A DNA stretch of 64,000 bases from Bifidobacterium crudilactis (GTDB lineage: Bacteria; Actinomycetota; Actinomycetes; Actinomycetales; Bifidobacteriaceae). The DNA lies in assembly GCF_000738005.1 (NCBI RefSeq), contig NZ_JHAL01000002.1, forward strand, positions 1,424,634 to 1,488,633, written 5' to 3'. Of the stretch, positions 7,892 through 56,033 are shown piece after piece (the first letter of the stretch is position 1; each line of letters starts with the position of its first letter). The position numbers were made by a program, and so were the translations under genes. The notes below the pieces were generated by a model, which worked only from the letters and a program-made list of their open reading frames with translations, was not told where the DNA came from and did not search any database.

Positions 7892-7962
7892 GATAACTGC
7901 ACTAAAAGGACAGCTTTTTGCCCAGAAAACTCCGAAAAAGCTGTCCTTTTAGTGCAGTTATC
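7892..7962. repeat. Hairpin family copy 1 (possible bidirectional terminator)
   Basis: A perfect 28-bp inverted repeat (7892-7919 with 7935-7962) and a 15-nt loop. The arm begins GATAACTGC and contains ACTAAAAGGACAGC. It lies 32 bp after the stop of the 7995-8606 gene and upstream of rpoB. Five related copies occur in the window, always just beyond a stop codon. The arm also carries a short A/T run next to the loop. Terminator activity is inferred from position and shape. Confidence 0.85.
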
Positions 7963-7994
7963 TATGTTGAGGCGCGGAAGCAGCGGAGCAGCGG

Positions 7995-8606
7995 CTATTG
8001 CACCACCACGGAAACGGGATCGGACTGGACTTTGTCGTCGCCCTTCAAGGACAGCTTCGCCACATAGGTGCCGCGCTCCACATTGGGCAAGGCAGAATCC
8101 TGCTGGCACTGCTCACCGGTCGAGTTGGCATTCCAGGTCAACGTCTGGATGTCCTTGTCGTTGCCGGTCATCAGCAGCATGCGGCTGTTCGCCGGGCAGG
8201 AATCCGAGTGCCAGACTGTTTCGTTGCCGGATGTGATGGTCAGCACACGAGAAGCGTCCGAACCGTCGATCAGGCAGCTCACCGAACCGTGGTGCTTGAT
8301 GGTCGCCGTGAACTTGACCGAACCGCCGAGCGACAACGTAGGCGAGCTTGCGCTGAGATCGAGATCGAGATCATTGGCGGTGCAGTTCTTCACGCCCGAA
8401 ACCTCTTTCGGACTGGGAGCCGCCTGCCGTGATATGGCATTGATGTCGTCCTTGTTGATTGCGTAGTTCACCGCGCCGACACCCTTGACCAGAAGCCACA
8501 CGATTCCCCAGCACAACACCACGGCCACAACCGCGAGCACAGCTGCGACAATCCTGCGACGTCGGTAGATGCGACGCTGTTTTGCACTGATCCTTCGCTT
8601 GGCCAT
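7995..8606 (-). CDS. Membrane-anchored extracellular protein of unknown function
   Basis: A 203-residue protein not recognised as a named family. It begins with a strongly basic cytoplasmic stretch (KRRISAKQRRIYRRRR), then one hydrophobic segment at about residues 18-40, and an extracellular domain of about 150 residues. That domain contains four cysteines (NC, SC, SC, QC), is rich in beta-type sequence and ends SDPVSVVVQ, suggesting an Ig-like or CARDB-like sandwich. It is followed by hairpin copy 1 and lies 50 bp downstream of mutY on the same strand, so the two may be co-transcribed. Confidence 0.75.
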   Translation of the reverse strand: MAKRRISAKQRRIYRRRRIVAAVLAVVAVVLCWGIVWLLVKGVGAVNYAINKDDINAISRQAAPSPKEVSGVKNCTANDLDLDLSASSPTLSLGGSVKFTATIKHHGSVSCLIDGSDASRVLTITSGNETVWHSDSCPANSRMLLMTGNDKDIQTLTWNANSTGEQCQQDSALPNVERGTYVAKLSLKGDDKVQSDPVSVVVQ

Positions 8607-8656
8607 AGTCCCGAGTCTACGACGAGAGCCGTGACAGACCCCTCTTCAACGCCCCA

Positions 8657-9595
8657 TCAGGGGAAGGAAATCGAGGAATCATGATGAATAACTATCAGCC
8701 CGTCATCATCCAAAGAAGCCAGGCAAGCATCCAACTGCCCGGTAACGGACCACAACGCGTCGAGTTCGTCCCTGCTCACCCGGGCATCTGCAGGACGACT
8801 GCGCAAGGCGTCGAGAATAATCCCTCTGACCTGTCGGTCCGTTCCCTTGAAGCGCTGACGCGGCCTTGTCGGACGATCACCCAGACCGGGCTTACCGGCC
8901 GCATTGAAAGCGCACAGTCCAGCCAACGGGCAGCTCTCGCACAGCGGCTTTCGAGCCGTACAGACCAGGGCGCCCAACTCCATCACGGATTGGTTCCACA
9001 GCACGGACTCACGCGCGTCATCGGGCAGCACCGTGTTGGCCAGACTGCGCTCCTCCACCGTTGACGCTCCGCCCTGGGACTCCACCCCGAGAAACACCCG
9101 TGACAGTACGCGACGGATATTGGTGTCCACCACCGCAATCCGTTCGCCGAAGGCGAAGCTCATCACCGCGCTCGCCGTGTAATCCCCCACTCCGGGCAAC
9201 CCGGTGAGGCGCTCGTACGTGGACGGCAACGCATCGTCATAGTCTTCGCCGACCACGCGGGCGCATGATTGCAGCCTGAGAGCGCGCCGCGGGTACCCCA
9301 GTTTTCCCCACGCCGTAATGACCTCGGCCGGGCTGGCTTCCGCCAACGCGCGGGCATCCGGCCACACCGCCATCCACGCCTGCCAATAGGGCACGACTCG
9401 GCTCATCTGGGTCTGCTGGCTCATGACCTCGGAAACCAGAACACCCCAAGGCGTGGTTCTGCCGAAACGCCACGGCAGATCTCGTGCATTCGCATCCCAC
9501 CAGGGGAAAAGGTCCTGCCGAACCAGCACGGCATCCGTCGCGGAACCGCCCGCCTCTTCACCACGTGTCTGTCGGTCGTCATACCTACCGGTCAT
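8657..9595 (-). CDS. mutY: A/G-specific adenine DNA glycosylase
   Basis: Base-excision repair glycosylase that removes adenine opposite 8-oxoguanine. The HhH-GPD core is visible: EVMSQQTQ, the helix-hairpin-helix LPGVGDYTASAV, and the catalytic Asp in VVDTNIRRV. A [4Fe-4S] cluster motif C-x6-C-x2-C-x5-C follows (CTARKPLCESCPLAGLC). At about 312 residues it is typical of short actinobacterial MutY and seems to have only a short C-terminal region. The ATG at 9595 is chosen because an upstream extension would run into divergent trmL; no clear Shine-Dalgarno sequence is seen, so the start is uncertain. Confidence 0.93.
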   Translation of the reverse strand: MTGRYDDRQTRGEEAGGSATDAVLVRQDLFPWWDANARDLPWRFGRTTPWGVLVSEVMSQQTQMSRVVPYWQAWMAVWPDARALAEASPAEVITAWGKLGYPRRALRLQSCARVVGEDYDDALPSTYERLTGLPGVGDYTASAVMSFAFGERIAVVDTNIRRVLSRVFLGVESQGGASTVEERSLANTVLPDDARESVLWNQSVMELGALVCTARKPLCESCPLAGLCAFNAAGKPGLGDRPTRPRQRFKGTDRQVRGIILDALRSRPADARVSRDELDALWSVTGQLDACLASLDDDGLIVIHHDSSISFP

Positions 9596-9715
9596 ATGCC
9601 CATCACGATTGACCAGCCTAGCCGATTCCCACAGCTTCACCGCTTCCAGGACGCTTCGAGCGATATATGAAAGTCGACGGACGCCAGAACATCGTGTGCT
9701 GTCGTTCTTCGCTTC

Positions 9716-9721
9716 TATTCT
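9716..9721 (+). promoter_or_regulatory. -10 hexamer abutting the trmL start
   Basis: TATTCT lies 7 nt before the GTG start of trmL, and no Shine-Dalgarno sequence is present. This fits a leaderless mRNA. No convincing -35 is visible. Confidence 0.35.
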
Positions 9722-9728
9722 TGCCCCT

Positions 9729-10433
9729 GTGAGCAATCAGGAACAGACAGCATCCAGCAGCGCAGAGCGGAACGACACCTCGGCGGCACCACGTACCGGC
9801 AACGAATCCCCAGCCGAGGGCGCGGTGGAAAGCATGTACGAGTACGGTTACCGCAAATCCACAGTCCGTACCGACGAACTCGTCACCGATGCCCATGGCA
9901 ATCCGATCAGCGTTGTGGATGCGATGCTCAAGGCCGAGGACGCCGCGAAATCCACGACAATCACCCCTCACCTGTGCTATTACTCGCCTCGCATTCCGGG
10001 CAATACGGGTTCTGCCATCCGCCTGTGCGCCGTGACCGGAACGATTCTGCACTTGGTGGAACCCCTGGGCTTCAATCTGCACGACACCAAACTCCGTCGC
10101 GCCGGTCTGGACTATCACGATATGGCACATGTGGTGCTGCACCCGAACTTCCAGAGCCTGGTCGACTCCATGCCGGGATCACGCATCATCGCCTTCACCG
10201 CGAACGCCACGAAACTCTATACCGAAGTGCAATACCGCCCCACGGATATTCTGCTGTTCGGCCCCGAACCGGGCGATATTCCCGATCCGATGGATATTAT
10301 GGGCGGCCCTCATGTGGCGGAGCAGGTGCGGCTGCCGATGCGTCCCTCCCTGCGAAGCCTGAACCTGACCAATTGCGCGTCAATCGCCATATACGAAGCC
10401 TGGCGTCAGCTCGATTTCAGCGGCGGCAACTAA
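9729..10433 (+). CDS. trmL: tRNA (cytidine/uridine-2'-O-)-methyltransferase, SPOUT/TrmL family
   Basis: SPOUT methyltransferase expected to 2'-O-methylate wobble base 34 of certain tRNAs. The TrmL core matches: PRIPGNTGSAIRLCAVTG, HLVEPLGF, LRRAGLDYHD, and the C-terminal knot segment LRSLNLTNCASIAIYEAWRQ. About 75 N-terminal residues precede the core; they are low complexity and begin at the GTG at 9729 (SNQEQTASSS). The gene is divergent from mutY. The start codon sits 7 nt after a TATTCT hexamer, so the mRNA may be leaderless. Confidence 0.9.
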   Translation: MSNQEQTASSSAERNDTSAAPRTGNESPAEGAVESMYEYGYRKSTVRTDELVTDAHGNPISVVDAMLKAEDAAKSTTITPHLCYYSPRIPGNTGSAIRLCAVTGTILHLVEPLGFNLHDTKLRRAGLDYHDMAHVVLHPNFQSLVDSMPGSRIIAFTANATKLYTEVQYRPTDILLFGPEPGDIPDPMDIMGGPHVAEQVRLPMRPSLRSLNLTNCASIAIYEAWRQLDFSGGN

Positions 10434-10507
10434 GCCCGCGAGCCGGGTGGCAGCATGCACGGCGCGGGCACCCGGACAAGGCGTGCGCAAGCGGAATGAG
10501 CTGGTGT

Positions 10508-11116
10508 CTAGCGCGCTGCGCGGCGCCCCCGCACCAGATTGTCCAGGAAATATCGGTGCGTTGACAGGTCGTCGTTCAATTCAGGGTGGAAGGACGTGAC
10601 CAGCATGGCGTCCTGGCGTGCGGCCACGATATGTCCGTCCACACGTGCCAGAACCTCGACGCCATCCCCCACGCTGTCGATATACGGTGCTCGGATGAAG
10701 GTCATCGGTATCTCCCCGACATCCGCCATCGCTCCCCTGGTCGCGAACGAACCTAGCTGACGTCCATATGCGTTGCGCTTCGCGACGATGTCCATGACCG
10801 CAAGATGACTTTCGCCATCCTCCACCTGCTTTGCCAGCAGCAGCAGGCCCGCACATGTCCCGAACACGGGCAGGCCGCCCACAAGCCGCTCCCGCAAAGC
10901 CTCCAGCATCCCCAGGTCGCGCAGCAGCTTGCCCTGCACGGTTGATTCTCCACCGGGAAGCACCAAACCGTCCATATCCTCATCAAGATCGCTGAGCTGA
11001 CGTATCTGCACGGTCGAAGCCCCGAGCTGCGACAGCATACGCTGGTGTTCGGCGAACGCCCCTTGCAGGGCGAGCACACCGATACGAGGTGCGAATGCCT
11101 GCGTTTCTGCGCTCAC
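10508..11116 (-). CDS. pdxT: Pyridoxal 5'-phosphate synthase glutaminase subunit
   Basis: Class I glutamine amidotransferase that feeds ammonia to PdxS in deoxyxylulose-independent PLP synthesis. It has 202 residues. Visible motifs are the oxyanion region LPGGEST, the nucleophile motif GTCAGLL, and the C-terminal TSFHPEL containing the catalytic His and Glu. The GTG start overlaps the pdxS stop codon (GTGA), which implies translational coupling and matches the 1:1 complex of the two proteins. Confidence 0.96.
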
Positions 11117-11988
11117 TTGCCACGCTCCGCCATCAGCACCGCGATTTCGTTCTCGTTGATGCCGACCATCGCCTCGCCCAGTCCTTCGGAGACCCTTGCC
11201 ACCAGATCCCAGTCCTGGTAGTTGGTCGTCGCCTGCACGATTGCAGAGGCCCTTTGCGCAGGATCGCCCGATTTGAAGATTCCCGAACCGACGAATACGC
11301 CTTCCGCACCCAGCTGCATCATCAGCGAGGCATCGGCTGGCGTGGCCACACCACCTGCAGCGAAATTGACCACCGGCAAACGGCCGTGGTCATGCACCGA
11401 ACGCAGCAGTTCGACCGGGACCTCAAGCTGCTTCGCCTTCTCGAAGAGTTCGTCGTCGCGCAGTCCGGCGACCTCGCGAATCTGCCTGTTCATCTCGCGC
11501 ATATGACGCACGGCCTGCACCACGTCGCCGGTTCCCGGTTCTCCTTTGGTCCGAATCATCGAGGCACCCTCCGCAATCCTGCGAAGCGCCTCTCCGAGAT
11601 TCTTCGCGCCGCAGACGAACGGCACGCTGAATTGGGTTTTGTCGATATGGTAGACGTCATCCGCCGGTGTGAGCACCTCGGACTCGTCGATGTAATCGAT
11701 GTCAAGGGCCTGCAGAACCTGCGCCTCAACGAAATGCCCGATGCGGACCTTCGCCATGACCGGAATCGACACGGCCTTCTGGATGCCGCGAATCATCTTC
11801 GGGTCACTCATGCGCGAGACTCCGCCCGCGGCACGAATATCGGCGGGGATGCGCTCCAACGCCATCACCGCGCAGGCTCCGGCATCCTGGGCTATCTCCG
11901 CCTGCTCCGGTGTGGTGACGTCCATGATGACGCCGCCTTTGAGCATTTGGGCAAGGTTTTTGTTCAGTTCATAGCGATTGTCGGTCAT
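11113..11988 (-). CDS. pdxS: Pyridoxal 5'-phosphate synthase lyase subunit
   Basis: Beta-barrel synthase that makes PLP from ribose 5-phosphate, glyceraldehyde 3-phosphate and ammonia. The family sequence is clear from [20 protein letters not shown] through [14 protein letters not shown] and [13 protein letters not shown]. The ATG at 11988 ([10 protein letters not shown]) matches the usual family N-terminus; a frame extension six codons upstream is unlikely. No Shine-Dalgarno is seen, but TATCCT lies 7 nt before the ATG, so a leaderless transcript is possible. It is the first gene of pdxS-pdxT. Confidence 0.97.
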
Positions 11989-11995
11989 GATGGCA

Positions 11996-12001
11996 AGGAT
12001 A
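11996..12001 (-). promoter_or_regulatory. -10 hexamer abutting the pdxS start
   Basis: TATCCT on the minus strand ends 7 nt before the pdxS ATG, and there is no Shine-Dalgarno sequence in between. It is a possible leaderless promoter; the -35 is not evident. Confidence 0.3.
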
Positions 12002-12050
12002 CACATCGTCCGTTTTCAGGTACGCAACACGGCCACATTCCACCGCAAAA

Positions 12051-12123
12051 AGATAACTGCAATACAAGGACAGTTTTTCACAGGAATATCCGTGTATGTA
12101 CTGTCCTTGTATTGCAGTTATCT
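12051..12123. repeat. Hairpin family copy 2
   Basis: A 24-bp perfect inverted repeat (12051-12074 with 12100-12123) and a 25-nt loop. The arm GATAACTGCAATACAAGGAC differs from copies 1 and 3 at several stem positions, and each change is matched in the opposite arm. It lies 17 bp after the stop of the UPF0210 gene. Confidence 0.85.
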
Positions 12124-12140
12124 CTCAGTATCGCTGTGTA

Positions 12141-13505
12141 TCAGTTTTTGAAGCTGTGAATCGGGGCCGGGATTCTTCCGCCACGGCTGACGAAGGCCTC
12201 GCAGCTCTTCTGATTGACCGGCATAATCGGAGCACGGCCCAGGAGTCCGCCGAATTCGGCCATATCGCCGACACCTTTGCCGATCACCGGAATCACGCGC
12301 ACTGCCGTGGTCTTCTGATTGATCATCCCGATGGCGGATTCATCGGCGATGATGCCTGAGATGGTGCTGGCGGTGGTGTCGCCCGGAATCGCGATCATGT
12401 CGAGACCGACGCTGCACACACAGGTCATCGCTTCCAATTTCTCGATGGTAAGGCAGCCCGATGCTGCGGCATCGATCATGTTCTTGTCCTCGGATACAGG
12501 GATGAAGGCGCCGGAGAGTCCGCCCACATAGCTGGATGCCATGATGCCGCCCTTCTTGACCTGATCGTTGAGCAGGGCCAGCGCGGCGGTCGTTCCGGGA
12601 GCACCGACCTGTTCCAAGCCCATCTCTTCGAGCACTTCGCCGACCGAATCCCCCACTGCCGGTGTCGGAGCCAGAGACAGGTCGATGATGCCGAAGGGCA
12701 CACCCAGGCGCTTGCTGGCTTCCTGGGCCACCAACTGCCCGACACGGGTGATTTTGAATGCGGTGCGTTTGATGGTCTCGCACAGCACACCGAAATCCTT
12801 GCCTCGAGCAGACTCCAAGGCCGTCCGCACCACACCGGGACCGGATACGCCGACGTTGATCACGGCGTCGCCCTCCGTGACGCCGTGGAAGCCACCTGCC
12901 ATGAAGGGGTTGTCGTCAGGAGCGTTGCAGAAAATCACCAGCTTCGAATTGCCCGAACTGTCGGTATCGGCGGTGGCCTGCGAGACCTCGAGAATCTTGC
13001 GTCCGACCAGAGCCACGGCATCCATATCGATGCCGGTTTTGGTCGAGCCGACGTTCACGCTGGCACACACGCGCTCGGTCTCCGAAAGAGCCTGCGGCAG
13101 CGATTCGATCAGCAGCCGTTCCGTAGGAGTCATGGACTTGCTCACCAGCGCGGAATACCCGCCGATGAAGTTCACGCCGACTTCCTTGGCGACCTTGTCG
13201 AGAGTGTGGGCGATCTGCACATAATCGTCCACGCTGCTGCATGCGCTCGCCGCGACCAGTGAGATGGGGGTTACCGTGATGCGCTTGTTGACGATGGGGA
13301 TGCCGTATTCACGCTCGATGGCCTCACCGGTGGAAACCAGATTCTTCGCATAGCTCGTGATTTTCTGATAGATATTGGTTCGCAACGTCGCCAGATCGTC
13401 GCTGGCGCAATCCAACAGGCTGATGCCCATCGTGATGGTGCGCACGTCGAGCTTCTCCTGCTCGATCATCTGATTGGTCTCGTGGACCTCCATGATATTC
13501 AGCAT
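12141..13505 (-). CDS. UPF0210/DUF711 family protein
   Basis: A 454-residue member of the conserved UPF0210 (PFL-like) family, whose biochemical role I cannot state. It is recognisable from the start [14 protein letters not shown] through [30 protein letters not shown] and the end [13 protein letters not shown]. The ATG at 13505 has an AAGGAAAGG Shine-Dalgarno upstream; an ATG four codons earlier is less likely. It lies 48 bp downstream of the small ACT-domain gene on the same strand. This pair recurs in Gram-positive genomes and suggests the ACT protein regulates or senses a ligand for it. Confidence 0.92.
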
Positions 13506-13553
13506 GGCTGTCTTCACCTTTCCTTGTGCTGTGGATGCATATCGGCCGATGAC

Positions 13554-13826
13554 TCAGACACGATGCATTCCGGTGAAGATCTCTTCTCGCTGGCAACGGA
13601 TGCGAACGCCGATCTCTTCTCCGAGACCGTCGAGATCCGCCACGATGTCCCCGAATTCCTTGTCGGAGGAGCTGTAGTCAACGATCATCATCATGTTGAA
13701 GAAACCATCGATGATGGTCTGTGATATATCGAGGACGTTGGTCTTGTGCTCGGACAGATAGGTGCATACGCGCGCGATGATGCCTACCGTGTCTTGTCCG
13801 ACGACGGTGATGATTGCCTTGTTCAT
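13554..13826 (-). CDS. ACT domain protein (UPF0237 type)
   Basis: A single ACT domain of 90 residues (MNKAIITVVGQDTVGIIARV...), the kind of module that binds small molecules such as amino acids. The start at 13826 is set by an AGGAG sequence about 7 nt upstream. It is probably the first gene of a two-gene operon with the UPF0210 protein and may act as its regulatory partner. The ligand is unknown. Confidence 0.9.
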   Translation of the reverse strand: MNKAIITVVGQDTVGIIARVCTYLSEHKTNVLDISQTIIDGFFNMMMIVDYSSSDKEFGDIVADLDGLGEEIGVRIRCQREEIFTGMHRV

Positions 13827-13911
13827 GGGGGTTCTCCTGGATACGCCTTGCTGAGATTTGGGAACTCCCCCAGTATATGTGCGAGGCCGCCAAAGCATCC
13901 GGGCAAAAGAA

Positions 13912-13957
13912 CGGGCCGTCGAATCCGCAACTCACCGTCAACGGATTCGACGGCCCG
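13912..13957. terminator. Terminator-like hairpin after galK
   Basis: A perfect 16-bp GC-rich stem (13912-13927 with 13942-13957) and a 14-nt loop, 12 bp past the galK stop codon. No long T run follows. Confidence 0.7.
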
Positions 13958-13969
13958 GCCTCACATCAT

Positions 13970-15220
13970 CTAGCGCACCTTGCGCGCCGAGTCAGAAGCG
14001 ACCGCTGCGAGTGCACGAGGTGCATGGAAACCCTGCCGAGCGAATTCGTCCGCAATCAGCTGGGCCAGCTTCTCGCTCTCGCCAGAATTCACCAGCGCGA
14101 TAATCGAACCGCCGAATCCGCCTCCGGTCATTCTCGCCCCATACGCCCCGTTCTTGCGGGCCACGTCGACAGCCACATCGAGTTCGGGCACGGTCACCTC
14201 ATAATCCGCCTTGAGCGAGTCATGGGATGCGTTGAACAAGCGTCCGGCCTCTTCGACCTGTCCGTTGGCGAATGCCCTGACGAAGCTGCGGACGCGTGCT
14301 ATCTCGGTGACCACATGACGCACACGCTTCTTCATCACCTCATCGGGCAAGGCATCCAGGGTCTCCTTCAGGGATTGGAAGGGGTCGTCGGATTTGGCGA
14401 TGCCGTCGGCTGTGACACGCAGATTGGCGACCTTGAGCACTTTGGCAGCCTCTTCGCAGCAGGCCCTGCGCTCGGCATACTGCCCGTCGTTCAACTGGTG
14501 GGGAGCCTGTGTATCCACGACCAGCAGTTCCAGCCCATGCGCACTGAGGTCAAAGGGCTGCTGCGAGGTGTTCTCCAGAGGCGTGAGTTCCGGACGGCAA
14601 TCCAGCAGCAAGGCGTGGCCGGCCGTGCAGCGCATCGAGGCGTTCTGGTCCAGTCCACCAGTACTCGCTCCTGCCATATCGTTTTCGGATTTCATGGCCG
14701 ACTCAATCAGGATCACGCGTCCTGCGTCCGAAGCGCCGTAACCGAGGGCGAACACGTCGTCCAATGCGAGCGCCGTCGAGCAGGTCATGGCCGCCGAAGA
14801 GCTCAGACCCGAGCCGAGCGGCACGCATGAGGCGAATGCGGCGTCGAAGCCTTGGACTTGCGAGAATCCCATGCTGCGCAGCGCCCAGGCCACACCCACC
14901 GGATATGCCGCCCACCCGTCCACTCCACGAGCTTCGAGGCCATTGAGGTCTACTTCCTGAAAGCTGGTGGGGTCCACATCCGAGACGACGCGCACTATGC
15001 CGTCCGTCCTGGGTTTGAGGGCTATGAAAGTCCGGTGCGGCAGGGCTATGGGCAGGCAGAGCCCCGCATTGTAGTCGGTATGCTCTCCGATGAGGTTGAC
15101 TCTGCCGGGAGCGTTCCACACCCCGCTCTCATCCTCGCCGAAGGTGTGGCGGAACAGCTCGGACGCTTTGTCCGATCCTTCGTCGTCTGTAAGGGCTTTG
15201 ATGAACTGCACTGTTGACAT
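13970..15220 (-). CDS. galK: Galactokinase
   Basis: GHMP kinase that phosphorylates galactose at C1 in the Leloir pathway; 416 residues. Visible signatures are the galactokinase motif GRVNLIGEHTDYN, the ATP-binding motif PLGSGLSSSAAM and the C-terminal GHMP motif MTGGGFGGSIIAL. An AGGAAGG Shine-Dalgarno precedes the ATG. It is the third gene of deoR-galT-galK, starting 19 bp after galT. Confidence 0.97.
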   Translation of the reverse strand: MSTVQFIKALTDDEGSDKASELFRHTFGEDESGVWNAPGRVNLIGEHTDYNAGLCLPIALPHRTFIALKPRTDGIVRVVSDVDPTSFQEVDLNGLEARGVDGWAAYPVGVAWALRSMGFSQVQGFDAAFASCVPLGSGLSSSAAMTCSTALALDDVFALGYGASDAGRVILIESAMKSENDMAGASTGGLDQNASMRCTAGHALLLDCRPELTPLENTSQQPFDLSAHGLELLVVDTQAPHQLNDGQYAERRACCEEAAKVLKVANLRVTADGIAKSDDPFQSLKETLDALPDEVMKKRVRHVVTEIARVRSFVRAFANGQVEEAGRLFNASHDSLKADYEVTVPELDVAVDVARKNGAYGARMTGGGFGGSIIALVNSGESEKLAQLIADEFARQGFHAPRALAAVASDSARKVR

Positions 15221-15239
15221 CTCTGCGTTCCTTCCTGCT

Positions 15240-16508: not shown

Positions 16509-16510
16509 TA

Positions 16511-17317: not shown

Positions 17318-17323
17318 TCGAAC

Positions 17324-17353: not shown

Positions 17354-17365
17354 CTTCTGATGTAA

Positions 17366-28974: not shown

Positions 28975-29064
28975 GCGATTCCGTCAATTGGACAGATTCA
29001 TGGTCACAGCTCAGGTCGAAGCTAGTCGGATGAGATGGGCTCTTCCGTTTGCCGTGTAAGGGCA

Positions 29065-29147
29065 GAATGAGATAACTGCACTAAAAGGACAGCTTTTCTG
29101 AGAAATTATTACCACATTGCTGTCCTTTTAGTGCAGTTATCTCATTC
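29065..29147. repeat. Hairpin family copy 3
   Basis: A perfect 29-bp inverted repeat (29065-29093 with 29119-29147) and a 25-nt loop, the longest stem of the family. The arm shares GATAACTGCACTAAAAGGAC with copy 1, but the loop is unrelated. It lies 54 bp after the oligopeptidase B stop and about 130 bp upstream of leuB. Confidence 0.85.
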
Positions 29148-40140: not shown

Positions 40141-40152
40141 ATACCACTCGAA

Positions 40153-40211
40153 CCCGGTAATACAATGGTGCGCCTTCGCTACCAAGCGGGGCGCACCATT
40201 GTATTACCGGG
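40153..40211 (+). terminator. Rpf-like gene terminator
   Basis: A perfect 22-bp stem (40153-40174 with 40190-40211) with further CGCT/AGCG pairing in the loop, 13 bp after the stop. Very stable. Confidence 0.75.
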
Positions 40212-40261
40212 CAAGTGTAGATACCCGGCTCTTCTCGTTGTGGCGTGTAAGGCCGGAATAC

Positions 40262-40332
40262 GATAATTGCACTACAAGGACGGCAATATCGTAATGATTT
40301 CTCCGAACAGCTGTCCTTGTAGTGCAGTTATC
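40262..40332. repeat. Hairpin family copy 4
   Basis: A 23-bp stem (40262-40284 with 40310-40332). The two arm differences (GATAATTGC, GGACGGC) become G-U wobble pairs, so the fold is kept. It lies between convergent genes, downstream of both. Confidence 0.8.
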
Positions 40333-40409
40333 TGCGCTGGTGATGCAGTCATCATTTGGGCGACAAACCTCCCTTTGAAGGGGACGTGTACCTAGCCGCA
40401 ACATAATAA

Positions 40410-46708: not shown

Positions 46709-47422
46709 CTATCGAATCTGAACGGGATCGTCTATTTTGTAGCCGAGGCCGCGCACGGTGGTGAGATATCGCGGATGGGAGGTGTCCTCTTCGATCTTCG
46801 AACGCACACGTTTGACGTGAACATCGAGGGTTTTGGTGTCCCCCACATAATCCGATCCCCATATGCGGTCTATCAGCTGATGTCTTGTCAGCACCCTGCC
46901 CTTGTTCTGCATCAGGTATTCAAGCAATTCGAATTCCTTGAGAGGGAAGAACACGCTTTCACCGTCTATCGTGACCGCGTGCTCTCCGACGAGCATCGAT
47001 ATCTTCCCACATACCAGTGGAGTGTCGTCCGAGGCATTGCCGCCGTCTTCGGATTCCGTGACCTTGTTGCGTCTGAGCACCGCTCTGATGCGAGCGAGCA
47101 GTTCCCGGAAGGAATAGGGTTTGGTCACGTAATCATCCGCTCCCAGCTCCAAACCGACGACTTTGTCGATTTCGGTGCCCTTCGCGGTCAACATGATGAT
47201 CGGCACGCGGGACTGTTCACGAATACGCCTGCACAAGGCCGTCCCGTCGATACCGGGAAGCATCAGGTCCAGCAGCACCAAGTCCACACCGCCACGCGTG
47301 AAGACATCGAGACCTTCCTCCCCCGTCGCAGCAGCGGAAACCTCATACCCCTCGCGATTGAGCTGATACACCAAGGGTTCCCTATATGATTCTTCATCTT
47401 CGACAATAAGAATGCGAGTCAT
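46709..47422 (-). CDS. OmpR-family response regulator (PhoP/RegX3-like)
   Basis: A 237-residue regulator with a receiver domain (phospho-acceptor Asp in VLLDLMLPGIDG, Lys in YVTKPYSF) and a C-terminal winged helix (LTRHQLIDRIWGSDYVGDTKTLDVHVKRVRSKIE). It is encoded between the sensor kinase and pstS on the same strand, so it is most likely the phosphate-starvation regulator that binds the Pho box. AAGGAATG precedes the ATG. Confidence 0.93.
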   Translation of the reverse strand: MTRILIVEDEESYREPLVYQLNREGYEVSAAATGEEGLDVFTRGGVDLVLLDLMLPGIDGTALCRRIREQSRVPIIMLTAKGTEIDKVVGLELGADDYVTKPYSFRELLARIRAVLRRNKVTESEDGGNASDDTPLVCGKISMLVGEHAVTIDGESVFFPLKEFELLEYLMQNKGRVLTRHQLIDRIWGSDYVGDTKTLDVHVKRVRSKIEEDTSHPRYLTTVRGLGYKIDDPVQIR

Positions 47423-47533
47423 GCAGATTCATTCCTTCTGTTTGTACTGCCTGTCTGGACCACCGGTTCAGGACCCCCAACGCACCGGTGACATTCGCCT
47501 ATGCAATTCTTTACCATACCCAACACCCAAGCA

Positions 47534-48823: not shown

Positions 48824-49114
48824 GGCGTCTCTTCTCCATATCGAACCGGAATCCGGTAACGGCTTTGGCGACGGCGGAACCACGGCAATCCGCCCACAAA
48901 CGCCAGCCGTCATCCCCTCGACATCATCCGGATGTGGGCTGTTGGGATCAGATGCCTGGAACCATTCACCGGTCGTGCACAACCATCATACAAATCCCCC
49001 ACACATCGGCGGTGCATCCCGTGCCATGCCGGCTTCGCGGCATCACCAGATAATTAGCGCTGTTCCTGTGCACATGACTTCGGTATCATCTATGAGCAAA
49101 GAGGTGGGCGTAGA

Positions 49115-50740
49115 ATGTTTCGGTTGTCCGGTACGGGCTTTCATGGGCAACGGTGGATATCAGAAAGACGGGTGGGCAGCGTTTTGGTTGCACGGACAAC
49201 GGCATTACGTCGCGATGAGGCAATGGTCAACGGAAAACTTTCACATGCCGCCTTGCTGTCCATAGCGATTCTCACCACGATTACCTTCGTGGGCAACTTC
49301 ACCCAGTTGCAGCTGACCAGCGCACTGCCGACGATCATCTCGGATTTCCACATATCGGTCACCACCGGGCAATGGCTGACCTCGGTGTTTCAGCTGGTGA
49401 TGGGCGTCATGGTCCCGCTCACCGCATACTTCACCAAACGCTTCTCGACCAGGCAGATTGTGATCACCTCGATGGTGGTGTTCACTCTGGGGTCCGTCAT
49501 CAGCTGGTTGTCCGATTCCTTCGTGCTCGTGCTCGCCGGGCGCACGCTCGAAGCGGTCGGCACAGGCGTGATGTGGCCGGTGCTGCAAATTACCGTATTC
49601 TCCATCTACCCTCTTGCCAAACGCGGAATGGCAATGGGTACGGTCGGAATCGCCATGAGCGTGGCCCCGGCCATAGGACCGACGCTGGGTGGTTGGCAGA
49701 CCGATTTCTCCGGTTGGCGTTCCATCTTCCTGCTGCTCGCCGTTCTGGGCGTGCTCTGCCTGCTGGCCTCGATTTTCGGCCTGCGCAATTTCAGCGAAAC
49801 CGATGCCAACACCAACACCGATTTCTTCTCCGTCGCACTCTCCATCTTCGGTTTCGGCGGACTGATGTTCGGTTTCACGAATATCGAGAGCTACTCCATA
49901 TTGAGCCCCGTAACCTGGCTGCCGATGGTCATTGGTCTGATAGGCATCATCTGGTTCGTCTTCCGCCAGTTTCACAAGAGCAATCCGCTGCTGAATCTCG
50001 ATGTGCTGAAAAACACCCGCTTCACCATCGGTACGATATGCGCGGCCCTCTCCTTCTTTGCCTTCAGCTCGATTATGGTCATCATGCCCTTGTACATCCA
50101 GACGGATCGCGGCTTCTCGGCGACGATGAGCGGCCTGATCATGCTCCCTGGTGCCTTCGGTATGGCCATCGCACAGTTCTTTGGCGGCAGGGCTCTGGAC
50201 CGTTTCGGTGCACGGCCCGTCGCCATCACGGGAAGCTGGCTCCTGCTGCTGGGAACTATCGGCATGAGTCTGGTGAGCATGGACACCTGGATATGGTGGA
50301 TTTCGATATGCCAATTCCTGCGTCAGGTCGGCATGGGCTTCGTGCTGATGCCCATCACGACATGGTCGCTCAACTGTCTTGAGCCTAAGGACCTGTCCGC
50401 AGGTTCGGCGGTGACCAACACGGTACGTCAGATAGCCGGGGCCGTCGGTGCGCCCGTTCTGGTGATACTCCTCGAAGTGTTCACCACCATGCGACGCGAC
50501 AGTCTGGGTCAGGCTGAAGACGCGCAGGTCATGGCAAGCGTGTTCGGCGTGCAGTGGGCCCTGCGTGTTTCCGCCGTAATCTGTCTGATCATGGCCTTGC
50601 TCATATACTTCGGGGTGAAGGGCGACGGTGCAGGCAGCGGCAGGGATATGACACGACGGGCATTGCGTCGCATGCATATCGTGCATGCACCCTCCATGCA
50701 CATTCCCTCGGTGCATATGCCCTCCATGCATCTGCACTGA
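49115..50740 (+). CDS. MFS transporter (DHA2-type drug exporter) with His/Met-rich tail
   Basis: Multi-spanning exporter, 541 residues. It has the loop motif of DHA-type transporters (TAYFTKRFSTRQIVI), motif C-like GIAMSVAPAIGPTLGGWQTD and about 14 hydrophobic segments. The C-terminus is odd: a cytoplasmic tail repeating PS(M/V)H(I/M/L) with six His. The ATG at 49115 has an AGAGGTG sequence at good spacing; an internal ATG at 49223 would drop 36 basic residues and has only a poorly spaced GAGG. The substrate is unknown. Confidence 0.85.
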   Translation: MFRLSGTGFHGQRWISERRVGSVLVARTTALRRDEAMVNGKLSHAALLSIAILTTITFVGNFTQLQLTSALPTIISDFHISVTTGQWLTSVFQLVMGVMVPLTAYFTKRFSTRQIVITSMVVFTLGSVISWLSDSFVLVLAGRTLEAVGTGVMWPVLQITVFSIYPLAKRGMAMGTVGIAMSVAPAIGPTLGGWQTDFSGWRSIFLLLAVLGVLCLLASIFGLRNFSETDANTNTDFFSVALSIFGFGGLMFGFTNIESYSILSPVTWLPMVIGLIGIIWFVFRQFHKSNPLLNLDVLKNTRFTIGTICAALSFFAFSSIMVIMPLYIQTDRGFSATMSGLIMLPGAFGMAIAQFFGGRALDRFGARPVAITGSWLLLLGTIGMSLVSMDTWIWWISICQFLRQVGMGFVLMPITTWSLNCLEPKDLSAGSAVTNTVRQIAGAVGAPVLVILLEVFTTMRRDSLGQAEDAQVMASVFGVQWALRVSAVICLIMALLIYFGVKGDGAGSGRDMTRRALRRMHIVHAPSMHIPSVHMPSMHLH

Positions 50741-50765
50741 AGCCAGAATCACATCATCTGGGTCG

Positions 50766-50835
50766 GATAACAGCATCACAGGGACAGCATTTCCGAGAAT
50801 TCTTGCCACGTTGCTGTCCTGGTGATGCAGTTATC
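50766..50835. repeat. Hairpin family copy 5
   Basis: A 24-bp stem (50766-50789 with 50812-50835) with two mismatches and one G-U pair, and a 22-nt loop. The variable stem block is ATCACAGG against CTGGTGAT. It lies between convergent genes, 25 bp after the MFS stop and 49 bp after the HNH nuclease stop. Confidence 0.8.
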
Positions 50836-50884
50836 TGACTCTGGCCAGACATCATCGTCCAATGCAGGGCGCAACGGTCCTTCG

Positions 50885-51634
50885 CTACTGCTTCGGCACG
50901 GCCTGACCAGGGCAGGAGTGCAGCACGGCTATCATGGCTTTCTTCTCCACTGTCGTCACGCTCAAGGAGTACTTGGCCTTCACTCCTATCTGCCTTGACA
51001 CATAGGCGCAGCGATAACCATGCTGTTCGGGCAGCCAATACGCGGCCGATGAGCTCCCCTTCTCCGAGTTCGCATCTCCGTCCACGGCCAGAAGGTTGTA
51101 AGGGTCATTGCCGAACTCGTAGCGTTTGGCGCTCGGCCAGGTATTCGCCCCGGCCCTCCAGGCGTTCTCCAATGCCACCACATGGTCGATCTGCACGTCC
51201 CTGCTGGTCTGCACACCACGGAGGAAATAGATGGTCTTGCCGGTATACGGGTCGTTCAGCACACCTGATTGCACCTGACAGGGTTTGCTGCTCGAAAATC
51301 TAATCTCCTTGAGATCCCTGCCGAGAATATCCTCACGAATATCACAGCCATCGCCGTCCGTGTCGGTGCTCCGATATCCGAACAGTTTGCGGTCATATCC
51401 CGTGCTCCGATAGTCGTCGTTCTTCACGGTCAGCGTCTCCAGGGTCTGCGCCGCGTCGCCTGTCGCGGTGTACCCGCCGGTGACCGTCTTGACATCATCG
51501 TTGAGCGCCGGAAGCAGCACCCCGATGGTGATGCCCACGATGACCGCGACAACCACCAAGACCAGCACACGCTCCATCGGCGAGCTTGCGCGGAAGCGAA
51601 GCGACGTCTTCCTTGGACCTCTCCGTACTCCCAT
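50885..51634 (-). CDS. Membrane-anchored or secreted HNH nuclease (DUF1524/GmrSD C-terminal type)
   Basis: A 249-residue protein. A basic N-terminus and a transmembrane or signal segment (about 24-44) precede an extracellular nuclease domain with DGDGCDIREDIL, IDHVVALENAWRAGA and the HNH-like NDPYNLLAVDGDANSEKG. Family members of this type are mostly secreted nucleases that may scavenge DNA. A short ORF lies 13 bp upstream on the same strand. Hairpin copy 5 follows. Confidence 0.88.
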   Translation of the reverse strand: MGVRRGPRKTSLRFRASSPMERVLVLVVVAVIVGITIGVLLPALNDDVKTVTGGYTATGDAAQTLETLTVKNDDYRSTGYDRKLFGYRSTDTDGDGCDIREDILGRDLKEIRFSSSKPCQVQSGVLNDPYTGKTIYFLRGVQTSRDVQIDHVVALENAWRAGANTWPSAKRYEFGNDPYNLLAVDGDANSEKGSSSAAYWLPEQHGYRCAYVSRQIGVKAKYSLSVTTVEKKAMIAVLHSCPGQAVPKQ

Positions 51635-51647
51635 GTTCGTACCCGCC

Positions 51648-51764
51648 TCAGGCGTAGATGAAGGTCATCGGAACACGGCCCACTCGTGGATGCCGCGTCG
51701 GATGCAGCTCGACCCGGGGAATACTCGTCCCATCAGCCAGAACGGTCTTCGACACGGATGTCAT
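51648..51764 (-). CDS. Small ORF (38 aa) upstream of the HNH nuclease
   Basis: Begins at ATG (51762-51764) with a strong AGGAG about 7 nt upstream, and ends at TGA, 13 bp before the nuclease start. The protein begins MTSVSKTVLADGTSIPRV and ends PMTFIYA. It is basic, with HPTRHPRVGR in the middle and no membrane segment. Codon third positions are mostly G or C, as in neighbours. I recognise no family. It may be a leader peptide, a small partner protein, or a gene remnant. Confidence 0.45.
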   Translation of the reverse strand: MTSVSKTVLADGTSIPRVELHPTRHPRVGRVPMTFIYA

Positions 51765-51904
51765 CGCACTCTCCTCGCACTCGACTCAATCTCAAAGCAC
51801 CACTGTATCGCCATCACTGTAATCTCACACATCTTACGAATCCACACCACCCGTTTGCTCGGTATCACAGCCCCACGAAGGCTCGAATATGAACGCCGCC
51901 GTTC

Positions 51905-53017
51905 TCAGCGCCTTGGCGTCTGCCCCAATGAATTGCGCTGCACGAAGGTCGCCGGAATCAGATCCACGCCATGATGGCTGCGCGGTGCGGGAGGACGTAT
52001 GATCACCCCAAGCAAGGCCAGGGCCTCTTGCACTGCGGCTCTGCCGAGTTGGGTGAGATGCGGCCTCACGGTGCACAGAGGAGGATACAGACTGTCCGCC
52101 GCCGGAATATCATCGAAGCCCACCAGACTGACGTCCTTCGGAATACGAATGCTGTGCTCGTGCAAAGCCCTGGCGACACCAATCGCCTGGTTGTCGTTTC
52201 CGGTGACGATGACGGTCGGCAGATTCCCTCCCCGCTCGCCATACGCTTCCAGATAATGATTGATACGAGCGTAGGCCTCCATAGGACTCCAGGTCTGAGC
52301 CCTGATGGTTCTCGAATCAATGGAGTATTCGGCGCTGCAGCGTTCCCAGGCCAGCAATCGCGTGGCGGCATCACGCCACTGGGACGGGCCGGCGAGGTAC
52401 CACGCGCTTCGGTGCCCCATCCCGTGCACCGCGACGGCGACCTCATGGATGGCTGACCACTGGTCGATGCCGACCACCGCGGCATTCCTGGCGGAAAGCC
52501 TGCGCAATGCGCTTTTCCCCGCCGCACCGATACCGTGGGTGGCGGTCACCACGACTCTTGGCGGAGAGATATTGACGGCACAGGCATATTCAAGCAGCAG
52601 CTCGGTGGATGCCAGAATAATGCAGGCCTCCACATTCTGCGATATCAGACACTCGCAGGCCTCATCAAAATCGCGTCGGGTCGCACCTGCCTCATCGATG
52701 AAAGTGACGCTGAGGAAAAATCCTCTCGCTCTCGCCGTAGCCTCAATAGCAGACAGCATGGTGATCGAGGCGGGGTCACGACCATTGCCCGCGATGAGAC
52801 CGATAGTGCGGGAACGATGCGAGGCAAGTGCACGGGCCGAGCTGCTCGGACGATATCCCAGCTTGCGAATGGCCTCCTGAACCTTCCTGCGTGTGGCTGC
52901 GGCCACATCGGGAGAGTGGTTGATCACCCTTGAAACAGTCTGATGCGACACACCGGCACGTTTGGCCACTTCGAATATCGACGGCTTCTTGCCGTTGCCA
53001 CCCGTCGTGCCGCTCAT
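51905..53017 (-). CDS. LacI family transcriptional regulator
   Basis: A 370-residue repressor with an N-terminal HTH (SIFEVAKRAGVSHQTVSRVINHSPDVAAATR), hinge (LGYRPSSSARALAS) and periplasmic-binding-protein-like sensor domain (GLIAGNG..., GFDDIPAADSLYPPLCTV). LacI genes in this group usually sit beside the sugar genes they control, but the neighbours here are rnhB and the nuclease. The sugar and target cannot be inferred. GGGGGAG precedes the ATG. Confidence 0.92.
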   Translation of the reverse strand: MSGTTGGNGKKPSIFEVAKRAGVSHQTVSRVINHSPDVAAATRRKVQEAIRKLGYRPSSSARALASHRSRTIGLIAGNGRDPASITMLSAIEATARARGFFLSVTFIDEAGATRRDFDEACECLISQNVEACIILASTELLLEYACAVNISPPRVVVTATHGIGAAGKSALRRLSARNAAVVGIDQWSAIHEVAVAVHGMGHRSAWYLAGPSQWRDAATRLLAWERCSAEYSIDSRTIRAQTWSPMEAYARINHYLEAYGERGGNLPTVIVTGNDNQAIGVARALHEHSIRIPKDVSLVGFDDIPAADSLYPPLCTVRPHLTQLGRAAVQEALALLGVIIRPPAPRSHHGVDLIPATFVQRNSLGQTPRR

Positions 53018-53224
53018 CGTCGCGCTCCCCCGTCATAGTCTGACAACCATCGAGCATACCCTCGCCCGTCAACCCCGGCGCACAACGCCTGCCGGCCTAC
53101 TCAAAAACATAGGTCCTGCCGCGAACCCGGGAGTGAGGGTAGATGACCGGAGCGCCGCCGGAAAGACGTCCCGAATCGGATCAGCCGCCCTCCGCGGCGC
53201 ACACGGTGCATCGCGGATAGCAGG

Positions 53225-53920
53225 TCAGCAGAGATGCCAGCTCACACGATGAAGGTCGCTCGGCCCTATGCGGGCTATCGTCTCACGGTGCGACGCCGAA
53301 CCATAGCCCTTGTTGTTCTCCCAACCATATGGCGCATATGACGGCTGCTTCGCCAATGACATCATCACACGGTCCCTGGTGACTTTGGCGATTACGGATG
53401 CGGACGCCACGCTTGCACACTGCTGGTCGGCTTTGACCATGGTGACGACATCGATGGGATACATCAGATCCGGGGCATCGAAGGAATCCACGACCGCGGA
53501 GACGTAGTCAAAGGAGCCGTCGAGTATGGCGCACATCGACAGTTGCCCGTCCGCCTCGTCATTTGCTCTCAATGTCGACTCCAGTTTGGCGACCCCTCTC
53601 AACGCGGCCATTCCCAGGGCATGCATGATGCCGAATTCGTCTATTTCAGCGTTGCTCGCCTCTCCGACAGCCCAGGCGTCGCTCCACGCTTCCAACGCTT
53701 CGACTATGGATTCGCGCTTCTTGGGGCTCAGCAACTTCGAGTCCGCCACACCCGGCGTCACTGCGAGCTTGTCCAACCTTGTGGAGCGAACGCCCACGGC
53801 TCCGACCATCACAGGGCCGGCCAAGGCCCCCCTGCCCACTTCGTCCAAACCCACGATCAGGTCATAGTGCTGCGCGGCAAGCGCCTGTTCCATCGTCAAC
53901 GTTGGTACTATGCGAGTCAC
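53225..53920 (-). CDS. rnhB: Ribonuclease HII
   Basis: Endonuclease that removes ribonucleotides from DNA; 231 residues. The catalytic acidic residues are visible in GLDEVGRGALAGP (DE) and the KADQQCASVASASVIAKVTRD segment. The start is GTG, with AAGGCGA upstream. It follows lepB by 15 bp, a likely operon. Confidence 0.95.
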   Translation of the reverse strand: MTRIVPTLTMEQALAAQHYDLIVGLDEVGRGALAGPVMVGAVGVRSTRLDKLAVTPGVADSKLLSPKKRESIVEALEAWSDAWAVGEASNAEIDEFGIMHALGMAALRGVAKLESTLRANDEADGQLSMCAILDGSFDYVSAVVDSFDAPDLMYPIDVVTMVKADQQCASVASASVIAKVTRDRVMMSLAKQPSYAPYGWENNKGYGSASHRETIARIGPSDLHRVSWHLC

Positions 53921-53935
53921 AATCTCAGTTCGCCT

Positions 53936-54820
53936 TCACTCAGTGTGCGTCTGTTCGTCAGGAACGGACGCGAATACCTCATGGTGGGCGCTCATGGTGG
54001 AAATGTTCTTGATCGGCCAATAGATCGCCAGTCCTACACCCACCACATCCTTCGTCGGAACCAGGCCGCTCTCTCCGTCGTCCTGGTGGTACCGCGAATC
54101 GGAGGAATTTCCTCGGTTGTCTCCCAGGACGAACACATGGCCCGCACTGACTTTCACTTTGAAGGAGATGATGCTCGGATCGCTGCCCGGACGAATATAC
54201 GAGCTCTCGTCAACAGCCACGCCGTTGATGGTGACCGGCGATCCGGGACCGTCGCATGCCACGGTGTCCCCAGGAAGACCGATGAGTCTTTTGATGAGAT
54301 ATTCGCTTTGACCGAGGGAGGTCTTCGTCTCGTTGTTCAGCCAATGCGCGGGGTCTTTGAATACGATGACATCCCCCCTCTGCAATTTGGCTATCCCCGG
54401 AATCAGCTGTGTGGTGACCACGCGGTCGCCCTCATGTATCGTGTCGAGCATCGAGCCCGAAGGAATCACGTAGAAGCCGAACAGGAAGGTTCTGACTACA
54501 AGAACGATGAGAATAGGTATGCCGCACCAGATCAACACTTCGCTCCAGCTCAGCATCGAATTCGGATTGCGCTTGCGCCCGGACCGACGGGAATCCTCCT
54601 CGGGTTTGGGCTGAGGATTCACACCATAATCGGCGACGCTGAAAATACGGGCATCGTTGTCGTTAACCGTCGCCGTCGAATCCGAGCCGTACCGTCCTGT
54701 GTTGTTCACCGGGGTGCCATATTCCCCCGCACCGTTCGCCCATGCACTGTTCTCATCAGTGTGGCTCTCCCCAGTGCTGTTCTCCCCAGTGCTGATCTCA
54801 CCAGTGCCATCAGAACGCAT
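53936..54820 (-). CDS. lepB: Signal peptidase I with repetitive N-terminal extension
   Basis: Membrane protease that removes signal peptides; 294 residues. The catalytic Ser lies in VIPSGSMLDTI and the Lys in KRLIGLPGDTV, followed by VFVLGDNRGNSSDSR. A transmembrane segment is near 95-115. About 90 residues before it are disordered and include pentad repeats (TGEIS, TGENS, TGESH). AAAGGAGAG precedes the ATG at 54820. rnhB follows. Confidence 0.95.
   Translation of the reverse strand: MRSDGTGEISTGENSTGESHTDENSAWANGAGEYGTPVNNTGRYGSDSTATVNDNDARIFSVADYGVNPQPKPEEDSRRSGRKRNPNSMLSWSEVLIWCGIPILIVLVVRTFLFGFYVIPSGSMLDTIHEGDRVVTTQLIPGIAKLQRGDVIVFKDPAHWLNNETKTSLGQSEYLIKRLIGLPGDTVACDGPGSPVTINGVAVDESSYIRPGSDPSIISFKVKVSAGHVFVLGDNRGNSSDSRYHQDDGESGLVPTKDVVGVGLAIYWPIKNISTMSAHHEVFASVPDEQTHTE
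54745..54804. repeat. 15-bp tandem repeat in the lepB N-terminal coding region
   Basis: Four imperfect 15-bp units (54745-54759, 54760-54774, 54775-54789, 54790-54804) of the type TGCTGTTCTCCCCAG. On the minus strand they encode the TGExS pentads of LepB. Confidence 0.7.
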
Positions 54821-54947
54821 GCTCTCTCCTTTGCCTTGCCCGGACTATGCACCGGCAATCTGACGATCCGTCCTTCGACGGTACACCAACTGCGATATTC
54901 CACACTCATTCGGTATGGCATTTCTACTAAGCCTTACGGCAATTGTT

Positions 54948-54989
54948 TTTCAGCCATTGCCTTTCATCAATTGCATTTCAGCCATTGAA
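54948..54989. repeat. Three 14-bp tandem repeats upstream of lepB
   Basis: Consecutive units TTTCAGCCATTGCC, TTTCATCAATTGCA and TTTCAGCCATTGAA, about 130 bp upstream of the lepB start. They could bind a regulator; the role is unknown. Confidence 0.6.
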
Positions 54990-55185
54990 GTGTTCAATAC
55001 CGCTATACCGCAGTCCAGACGGAAAGCGGCATCCAACGTTCCTACCAGGCCTGGCAACTCGTCGCTACTGTGTACGACTGTGCGCCGGGCCCAGAATCAA
55101 TCGTCGAACGATACCGGCATCTCGCGCGCCAAGGGTTACGGCACATAAGGGTAGCAGAAGACGAGCGGATGACGGAGCGGATACA

Positions 55186-55224
55186 GTATGACCCGGAGGC
55201 CTTGGAAAAGCTTCCGGGTCATAC
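55186..55224 (-). terminator. rplS terminator
   Basis: GTATGACCCGGA (55186-55197) pairs with TCCGGGTCATAC (55213-55224), 32 bp after the rplS stop. Confidence 0.65.
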
Positions 55225-55256
55225 TCAACGACGCAGTAGTCACACCATCATCTGCA

Positions 55257-55616
55257 TCAGGCCTTGTTGTCGCGACGCTCGGCGATACGTGCTGCCTTAC
55301 CGCGAAGATCACGCAAGTAGTACAGCTTGGCGCGGCGTACACGACCCTTGCGGACCAACTTGATGGAGTCGATCTGTGGGGAATGCAGCGGGAACCGACG
55401 CTCGATGCCGACGCCGAAGCTCACCTTGCGGACGACGAAGGTCTCGCGAAGACCTGCGCCCGAACGGGCGATGACCACGCCGGTGAAGGCCTGGATACGG
55501 GTGTTGTTGCCTTCCTTGATGTTCACGTTGACTTCAACGGTGTCACCAGGACGGAAATCGGGAATCGACTCCGCGGGCTTCAACTGCTTCGCTTCAAAAT
55601 TCTGAATAGCACTCAT
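55257..55616 (-). CDS. rplS: 50S ribosomal protein L19
   Basis: Ribosomal protein L19, 119 residues: [38 protein letters not shown] and [13 protein letters not shown]. The ATG at 55616 follows GGAGGAAC. It stands apart from other translation genes in this window. Confidence 0.97.
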
Positions 55617-56033
55617 GCTGTTCCTCCATAACCGCCGCATACCGGCATGTGTAAGCGGGCGAACCGTATGTGACGGCCACACCCAACATCTGTTCCCTCC
55701 GGTTTGCCATCGGGAGCCTACCGATCCGCCTGTATCGGGAACATCGAAGCCCCGGCAGGCTGGACACTGGGAATGAGCATCTATGCGGCGACGCACATTC
55801 CGGCACAGCAACGCACAAGTCTACTCCACAATCCCCAAAAAGAACACCATTATGCGGTATTCGTCGGCCAACCCCATTCCTTCCTTGAGAAATCTCGCCA
55901 TCGCAAGCATGAAGAAGCCCGGAGCAGAGTATCCGCATATGCGCAAACTGCTTCACAAGGACGGTATTGGGTCACAATCTCCCGCAAATACCGCCCTTGT
56001 GAAGCAGTTATCTCCTAATGCCCATGCACAGAT
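55617..56033. other. Intergenic region between rplS and pgi
   Basis: About 417 bp holding hairpin copy 6. A TAGACT hexamer (55818-55823, minus strand) is a weak rplS -10 candidate. No ORF with a ribosome binding site is evident. Confidence 0.5.
55946..56009. repeat. Hairpin family copy 6
   Basis: A 23-bp stem (55946-55968 with 55987-56009) with one mismatch. The arm is AACTGCTTCACAAGGAC, where the variable block TTCA pairs with TGAA opposite. It lies 24 bp after the pgi stop and is the most diverged copy outside the stem core. Confidence 0.75.

Follow-up and report, generated by a model that had tools for sequence, protein, structure and literature searches.

A lineage-specific, MITE-like hairpin repeat behind stop codons of Bifidobacterium crudilactis, and its probable role as a transcript end

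Why does a single 64,000-nt stretch of the Bifidobacterium crudilactis genome (2.36-Mb assembly, here G000; the stretch, G000:C2:1424634-1488633, is called the window below) carry six long hairpins of related sequence, each just after a stop codon? A first-pass annotation of the window had recorded these hairpins, each with a variable block inside the stem that is matched by the opposite arm, and had offered a special terminator, an RNA stabiliser, a protein-binding site or a repeat resembling a repetitive extragenic palindrome (REP) or a miniature inverted-repeat transposable element (MITE) as candidate explanations. All six were present when we re-analysed the window, with stems of 23–30 bp and the matched change of inner block and opposite arm visible across the copies; they make up six of its 15 long hairpins, where two Markov controls yielded 3 and 4. 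We consider it probable, at roughly 60%, that they belong to a lineage-specific MITE-like repeat whose hairpin has been kept behind stop codons as a transcript end, so that two of the listed interpretations—a MITE-like repeat and a terminator-like placement—seem to hold jointly. "MITE-like" refers to how the unit appears to work: matching terminal inverted repeats on both sides, as in MITEs, were not found, and the hairpin has inverted arms of its own.

The family is spread over the whole genome. Fetched stretches of G000 gave 118 family hairpin calls, at least one of them false, and six more copies were read separately; a covariance model trained on 64 copies found at least 150 matches with both strands counted (a count that reaches 150 in a genome is a lower bound), and TGCAGTTATCT occurs 66 + 68 times as against 0 in a reversed control. 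Restriction of the copies to the window, which the first-pass annotation had named as evidence against its own proposal, can thus be dismissed. Two calls look false (L124 258 among the 118 of G000, and L145 12105 among the 41 of a sister genome, G024), and both are retained in the counts of placement, ends and duplications given below. When lengths of 62–84 nt were permitted, 64 of 77 copies measured 73 nt, 10 measured 72 nt and 3 measured 71 nt; it is on this search that the fixed length rests, the 118-call search having permitted cores of 69–72 nt alone. The hairpin has a stem of about 24 bp with termini AGATAACTGC and GCAGTTATCT, a loop of about 25 nt, and TTTT within an arm. Across the 64 copies that measure 73 nt, 96.5% of stem cells are paired, the outer arms are almost invariant, and two-sided changes number 29 cells versus 5.6 in shuffles, a value that 0 of 500 shuffles reached. 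Two details of the initial description need amending. The shared arm motif GATAACTGC is intact in three left arms of the window; the copy at 40262 reads GATAATTGC, that at 50766 reads GATAACAGC, and GATA is absent at 55946. The loops, described as unrelated, have a common consensus near AATnTGGTAATAATTTCTCCGAAAA once the genome's copies are oriented.

Some copies bear more than a hairpin, and this had been overlooked for two of the six window copies (at 29070 and 40261). A sequence of about 26 nt (GGCTCTTCGC..., resembling GGCTCTTCGCATTTTGGCGTGTAAGG) matches the ends of ISL3 elements in these genus genomes at 18–19 of 26 positions and occurs at 20 places in the genome, with 0 in the reversed control. 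Read by eye, each of these 20 ISL3-like ends has a family hairpin, in some cases a diverged one, at a distance of 9–22 nt, and we therefore treat end, spacer and hairpin as one unit. By score (≥13; the maximum at 3000 random places was 12), one flank bears such an end in 24 of the 118 copies. Loops of end-bearing copies are closer to the consensus (median score 18 versus 9, p 0.0002) and face both ways relative to the end (13 versus 7, 4 unclear), so the hairpin can flip.

ISL3 elements make 8-bp target duplications, and the flanks of one ISL3 copy (L258) show such a duplication when read by eye. Among the 24 end-bearing units, one is bordered just outside end and hairpin by an 8-bp duplication matching at 8/8 positions and one by a duplication matching at 7/8; two cases at ≥7/8 compare with a shuffled-flank mean of 0.04, and three at ≥6/8 with 0.79. 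In these two copies, the only ones where it can be judged, a further 2–3 bases past the hairpin belong to the unit, and the 8-bp duplication bounds the whole. The unit of the 8/8 case (L120) is absent from G023, G024 and G006, and its site in G024 holds a stretch that, judged by eye, looks like one copy of the target. None of the ISL3 elements compared has the same end as the unit, and full ISL3 copies were rejected as the direct source after seven ISL3 loci were found without exact GATAACTGC or GCAGTTATC. One ISL3 element of B. crudilactis (L071, G000:C3:13444-17148; PF01610) lies on a 29.9-kb contig together with an open reading frame (ORF) that resembles ParA, matching ParA genes of plasmids over a short length, and this contig is perhaps a plasmid or an integrated element. 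L071 is 83% identical to an ISL3 element on a Bifidobacterium longum plasmid, and similar copies occur in G005, G006 and G023.

Where, then, do the hairpins sit? With gene calls from our own codon-score script, the 118 calls comprised 58 tandem, 49 convergent and 6 divergent settings; of the other five, 3 lay within a called ORF and 2 at the edge of a locus. A stop codon is faced by 107 of the 113 intergenic copies, at a median distance of 26 nt and within 60 nt in 81 of the 107, and 43 of the 58 tandem copies are closer to the upstream stop than to the next start. Convergent settings account for 49/113 copies versus 4/37 gaps of the window (p 0.0003) and for 58/257 of all gaps of at least 20 nt in the same loci, a figure that includes the elements' own gaps. 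Copies without an ISL3-like end lie at a median of 23 nt from the stop (n 84), those with one at 58 nt (n 23; p 0.003). The placement originally reported for the window agrees with this: the nearest facing stops are 32, 18, 60, 121, 25 and 21 nt away by the same gene caller, and the copies at 40262 and 50766 lie between convergent genes. Such positions suggest that family hairpins supply transcript ends at many, not all, of their places. For B. breve, the results given in PMC5746004 class 54% of termination signals as Rho-independent, the remaining ends often falling at stem-loops that lack this pattern, and a section heading of a 13-genome study states that poly A/U trails are not necessary in genomes (PMC8355165).

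At several gene ends that carry a family hairpin in B. crudilactis, some relatives carry something else. In the closely related G023, where no family hairpins were found, 16 orthologous sites were bracketed by both flanks; the 12 that were read held 0 family hairpins and at least five unrelated long hairpins (at the equivalents of window 12051, L130, L059 and, twice, L064). The gene end at window 12051 has a family hairpin in G024 and an unrelated long hairpin in G023; G014 and G015 have a further long hairpin of their own at the corresponding places (L176 and L175, respectively; ATACGTCAAGGCCCCGTCTTCC...), which does not belong to the family. At L063, B. crudilactis and G023 share a terminator-like hairpin distinct from the family hairpin, which is an addition there. 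The 34 long hairpins in sampled stretches of G023, G006 and G016 form no sequence family; these counts are floors, the finder having missed the long hairpin at the G023 pdxS site (0 in that contig). That hairpin was rejected as a second dispersed family, its pattern occurring three times, two of these being the hairpin's own arms.

How far does the family reach? Looking in related species had been proposed from the start, and this brought a divided answer: G024 is rich in copies, and it is the only one of 26 other genus genomes that is. Among all 27 genus genomes searched with the covariance model, B. crudilactis and G024 are rich—the latter with 80 matches at 1e-6 or better on both strands and 41 hairpin calls—while G005 has one weak match and G006 two. 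Among 189 family-level genomes, a match at 1e-4 occurs in four, namely B. crudilactis, G024 and, once each, G131 and G162; this search used stricter filters and does not list the G006 match at 1.1e-7 from the 27-genome search. We thus regard the family as lineage-specific and not as a widely conserved terminator class. Single weak relatives in G006 (L074, 97 nt) and G005 (L075, 74 nt), with ends like ATAACTGC, may be old family members. B. crudilactis and G024 group in a tree of seven proteins (support 98), G023 falling outside them, and the simplest origin for the burst is therefore within the clade of these two; overall protein identity to B. crudilactis is 93.4% for G024 and 92.8% for G023. 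None of the 41 G024 copies bears an ISL3-like end. One 171-nt query gave no match indicating plasmid or phage carriage, and viral contigs gave one short pattern match, a single arm at a contig start. Across wider genome contigs, from which records near the window may be missing, the exact arm pattern gave 13 single matches in unrelated taxa, near the chance estimate of about 7.

The two rich genomes allowed us to follow individual hairpins. Alignments of at least 250 nt ending within 150 nt of both hairpins defined 23 orthologous pairs at 22 G000 sites (L135 pairs with two G024 hairpins), and the family hairpin thus persists at 22 places orthologous between the species. Within these hairpins, 395 stem pairs are unchanged, 94 have changed on both sides and 5 on one side with pairing preserved, and a further 35 lack pairing in one species or both. 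Inner arms are 88.5% identical within G000 and 68.4% within G024; between the species, identity is 66.9% for orthologs and 65.1% for non-orthologs at the 22 sites. Loop identity of 0.75 or more was seen in 3/22 orthologous versus 1/462 non-orthologous pairs, the overall excess for ortholog loops being weak (permutation 0.083). As a few ortholog loops are alike and the arms are not, it seems that at some places one and the same old hairpin retained its loop, and its arms were converted to the version of the respective genome. This arm pattern could result from selection on pairing, from template-switch repair or from a species-specific binder. A bolder formulation, which we hold to be rather doubtful, is that a set of 3′-end hairpins had its arms rewritten in step at more than 100 places with position, length and sometimes loop constant, by a changed trans-acting reader or by arm-by-arm copying, and that a mobile element thereby rebuilt part of the transcript-ending system of one small clade.

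Taken together, the sequences lead us to propose the following course of events. The unit—one ISL3-like end of about 26 nt, a 9–22-nt spacer and a near-perfect hairpin of 71–73 nt—would have been non-autonomous and moved in trans by an ISL3-type transposase. Copies that landed just past stops would have been retained, their hairpin, able to form in the RNA whichever strand is transcribed, helping to end or protect the transcript. The ISL3-like end would then decay, and the hairpin would be held by selection on pairing, perhaps aided by arm-to-arm copying.

Several observations weigh against this proposal. Regarding movement, just 2 of the 24 units reach a duplication of 7/8 or better, six at ≥5/8 are no excess over the 4.1 of shuffled flanks, and exact direct repeats of 3–9 nt are not in excess around the 94 hairpin-only copies of G000, so that the proposed check for target-site duplications gave a clear case in two end-bearing units and none among hairpin-only copies. 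We rejected transposition of the hairpin alone on the strength of the direct-repeat result; a lack of repeats would be expected of old copies, and also of hairpins that never moved on their own. Every one of the 118 G000 hairpins differs from all the others, and recent movement is thus not seen. A second, right-hand ISL3 end, which is to be expected of a normal MITE, was not seen on the units, and G024 gave no match to an ISL3 transposase; for these two reasons, the mover is an inference. In the resident ISL3 element the ends are diverged, and it carries no family hairpin. Regarding termination, a T-rich (in RNA, U-rich) tail follows 7 of 118 copies in G000 and 9 of 41 in G024, and some copies adjoin another hairpin, as at 40153-40211 in the window. 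Finally, rpoB/rpoC DNA of B. crudilactis is 90% identical to that of G023 and 85% to that of G024, contrary to the seven-protein tree.

The nearest described element is SPRITE of pneumococci, likewise a dispersed hairpin that is enriched between convergent genes, lies near gene 3′ ends and was proposed to be co-opted as a terminator; as described in PMC3049150, it differs in its 18-bp duplex, long U-rich tract, short AAAA/TTTT ends and a target duplication that could not be established. The bifidobacterial family has stems of about 24 bp that mostly lack a U-rich tail; it shows an ISL3-like end, 8-bp duplications in two cases and no SPRITE sequence, and since sequence, tail and ends differ we do not file it as a SPRITE member (a review on MITEs of prokaryotes, PMC10969869, mentions SPRITE too). 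With ISL3-family insertion sequences (PF01610), the unit shares the end match at 18–19 of 26 positions and, in two copies, an 8-bp duplication such as that seen at L258, but it has no transposase gene and no matching right-hand end, the hairpin being on the other side. Paired DNA uptake signal sequences of Neisseria and Pasteurellaceae also form a terminator-like stem from a motif and its complement, by the account in PMC1852404; here, the motif comes as a fixed 71–73-nt unit. Compared with a canonical Rho-independent terminator, a stable hairpin soon after the stop is present and the U-tract after the stem is missing from most copies. Searches of open-licence PubMed Central returned no paper for four element strings and, among the papers listed, no report of such an element for Bifidobacterium combined with repeat, palindrome or MITE.

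Does the host need the hairpins at all? A purely selfish MITE might survive behind stops as the least harmful position, with pairing renewed by template switching at quasi-palindromes and no host function. Arm-to-arm copying would give just such a preponderance of two-sided over one-sided ortholog changes (94 versus 5), the flipping of the hairpin relative to the end fits, and the SPRITE authors state that insertions are best tolerated behind genes (PMC3049150). Yet hairpins persist at the 22 orthologous places, copies that lack the end are closer to stops than those that bear it, and unrelated long hairpins occupy several of the same places in relatives; we consider this explanation rather unlikely. 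We find it quite unlikely that the hairpins are instead sites for a host RNA- or DNA-binding protein, for instance an RNA 3′-end or nucleoid protein reading GATAACTGC plus the arms, with species-specific arms reflecting a changed protein. Almost invariant outer arms, nearly fixed lengths and inner arms alike within G000 while divergent between orthologs would suit such a reader; the variability of inner arms in G024 is a poor fit to one strict binder, a duplex-DNA site alone needs no pairing through the variable block, and there is no candidate protein, no search for one having been made.

The hairpin might also never have moved, if host-made terminators were homogenised by gene conversion and ISL3 often inserted beside them. 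The lack of target duplications at hairpin-only copies, the absence of ISL3-like ends in G024 and the homogenised inner arms of G000 all accord with this. What makes it very unlikely in our view is that every one of the 20 ISL3-like ends sits on a hairpin at a near-constant distance, that both good duplications enclose end plus hairpin, and that the 34 long hairpins in the sampled stretches of G023, G006 and G016 share no family sequence. REP elements or their paired form (REPIN), moved by a REP-associated tyrosine (RAYT, Y1) transposase, are likewise short palindromes dispersed outside genes, often at gene 3′ ends; the Y1 transposase domain PF01797 has 0 matches in G000, in a search that was positive in 5 of 14 control genomes, and since the domain was not found the strict REP interpretation of the first-pass annotation is unsupported and we give it next to no credence. 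The preferred explanation continues to be a MITE-like unit whose hairpin was probably retained as a transcript end.

Within the window, the six copies illustrate different states of the unit; strand is unassigned for the hairpins. The copy at 7891..7963 has no ISL3-like end that we could find and lies 32 nt from the stop of the ORF at 7995-8606(-). That at 12051..12123 is 18 nt past the stop of a DUF711 gene (12141-13517, -) and ahead of a SOR/SNZ gene (11113-12006, -). The third hairpin (29065..29147; 73-nt core 29070-29142) has a mismatch-free 29-bp stem and is adjoined by an ISL3-like end at 29038..29061 on the + strand (score 15, null maximum 12). The fourth (40261..40333) is adjoined by an end at 40227..40252 on the + strand, with 1 mismatch relative to the search pattern, and has convergent genes on either side; it begins about 50 nt past the separate, unique hairpin at 40153-40211. 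Convergent genes also flank the fifth (50760..50841; 72-nt core 50765-50836). The sixth (55943..56013) is diverged, its left end decayed, and lies 21 nt past the stop of a PGI gene (56034-57746, -). As the first-pass annotation had said, no transposase is nearby: none was found among 47 distinct window ORFs—part of the total—scanned against Pfam. Rfam 15 at gathering score gave no match at the hairpins, two tRNAs being its sole matches in the window.

Other repeats occur in these surroundings. A unique hairpin at 61566-61613, its two arms of 24 nt each directly adjoining (GATAATGACGAGG...CATTATC), also starts with GATAA and ends with TTATC and is located just 3′ of tRNA-Thr, and three degenerate direct repeats with 14-nt spacing (GCCTTACGGCAATTG.../TTTTTCAGCCATT) span 54931-54986 upstream of a signal peptidase gene. 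Elsewhere in the genome, the flanks of hairpins L003, L013, L026, L029, L047 and L049 align over 540–705 nt at 71–87%; these are ends of a multicopy gene family, each directly followed by a family hairpin. Another small repeat, about 100 nt long (AAAGCGTGCAAAGCAGCACGCGAAG...GCACAGTTG) and rich in short inverted repeats, stands to the left of the hairpin in L039 8444, L059 2001 and L062 1941 and is also found at L029 ~1350-1500, there without an ISL3-like end; by eye, the false call L124 258 belongs to this repeat. In L245, a family hairpin is directly followed by another GGCTCTTC start, which may reflect insertion in tandem or nested form.

For B. crudilactis and its relatives, the family offers a countable case of a mobile repeat that is possibly taking over as a gene-end signal, and both a sister and a near outgroup are at hand. 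Transcript ends can be compared at one and the same gene in B. crudilactis, where it carries a family hairpin, in G024, where that hairpin is written differently, and in G023, where the hairpin is unrelated. Covariation in a palindrome is usually taken as proof of selection; with both arms rewritten at orthologous places, selection on pairing becomes testable here against template-switch repair.

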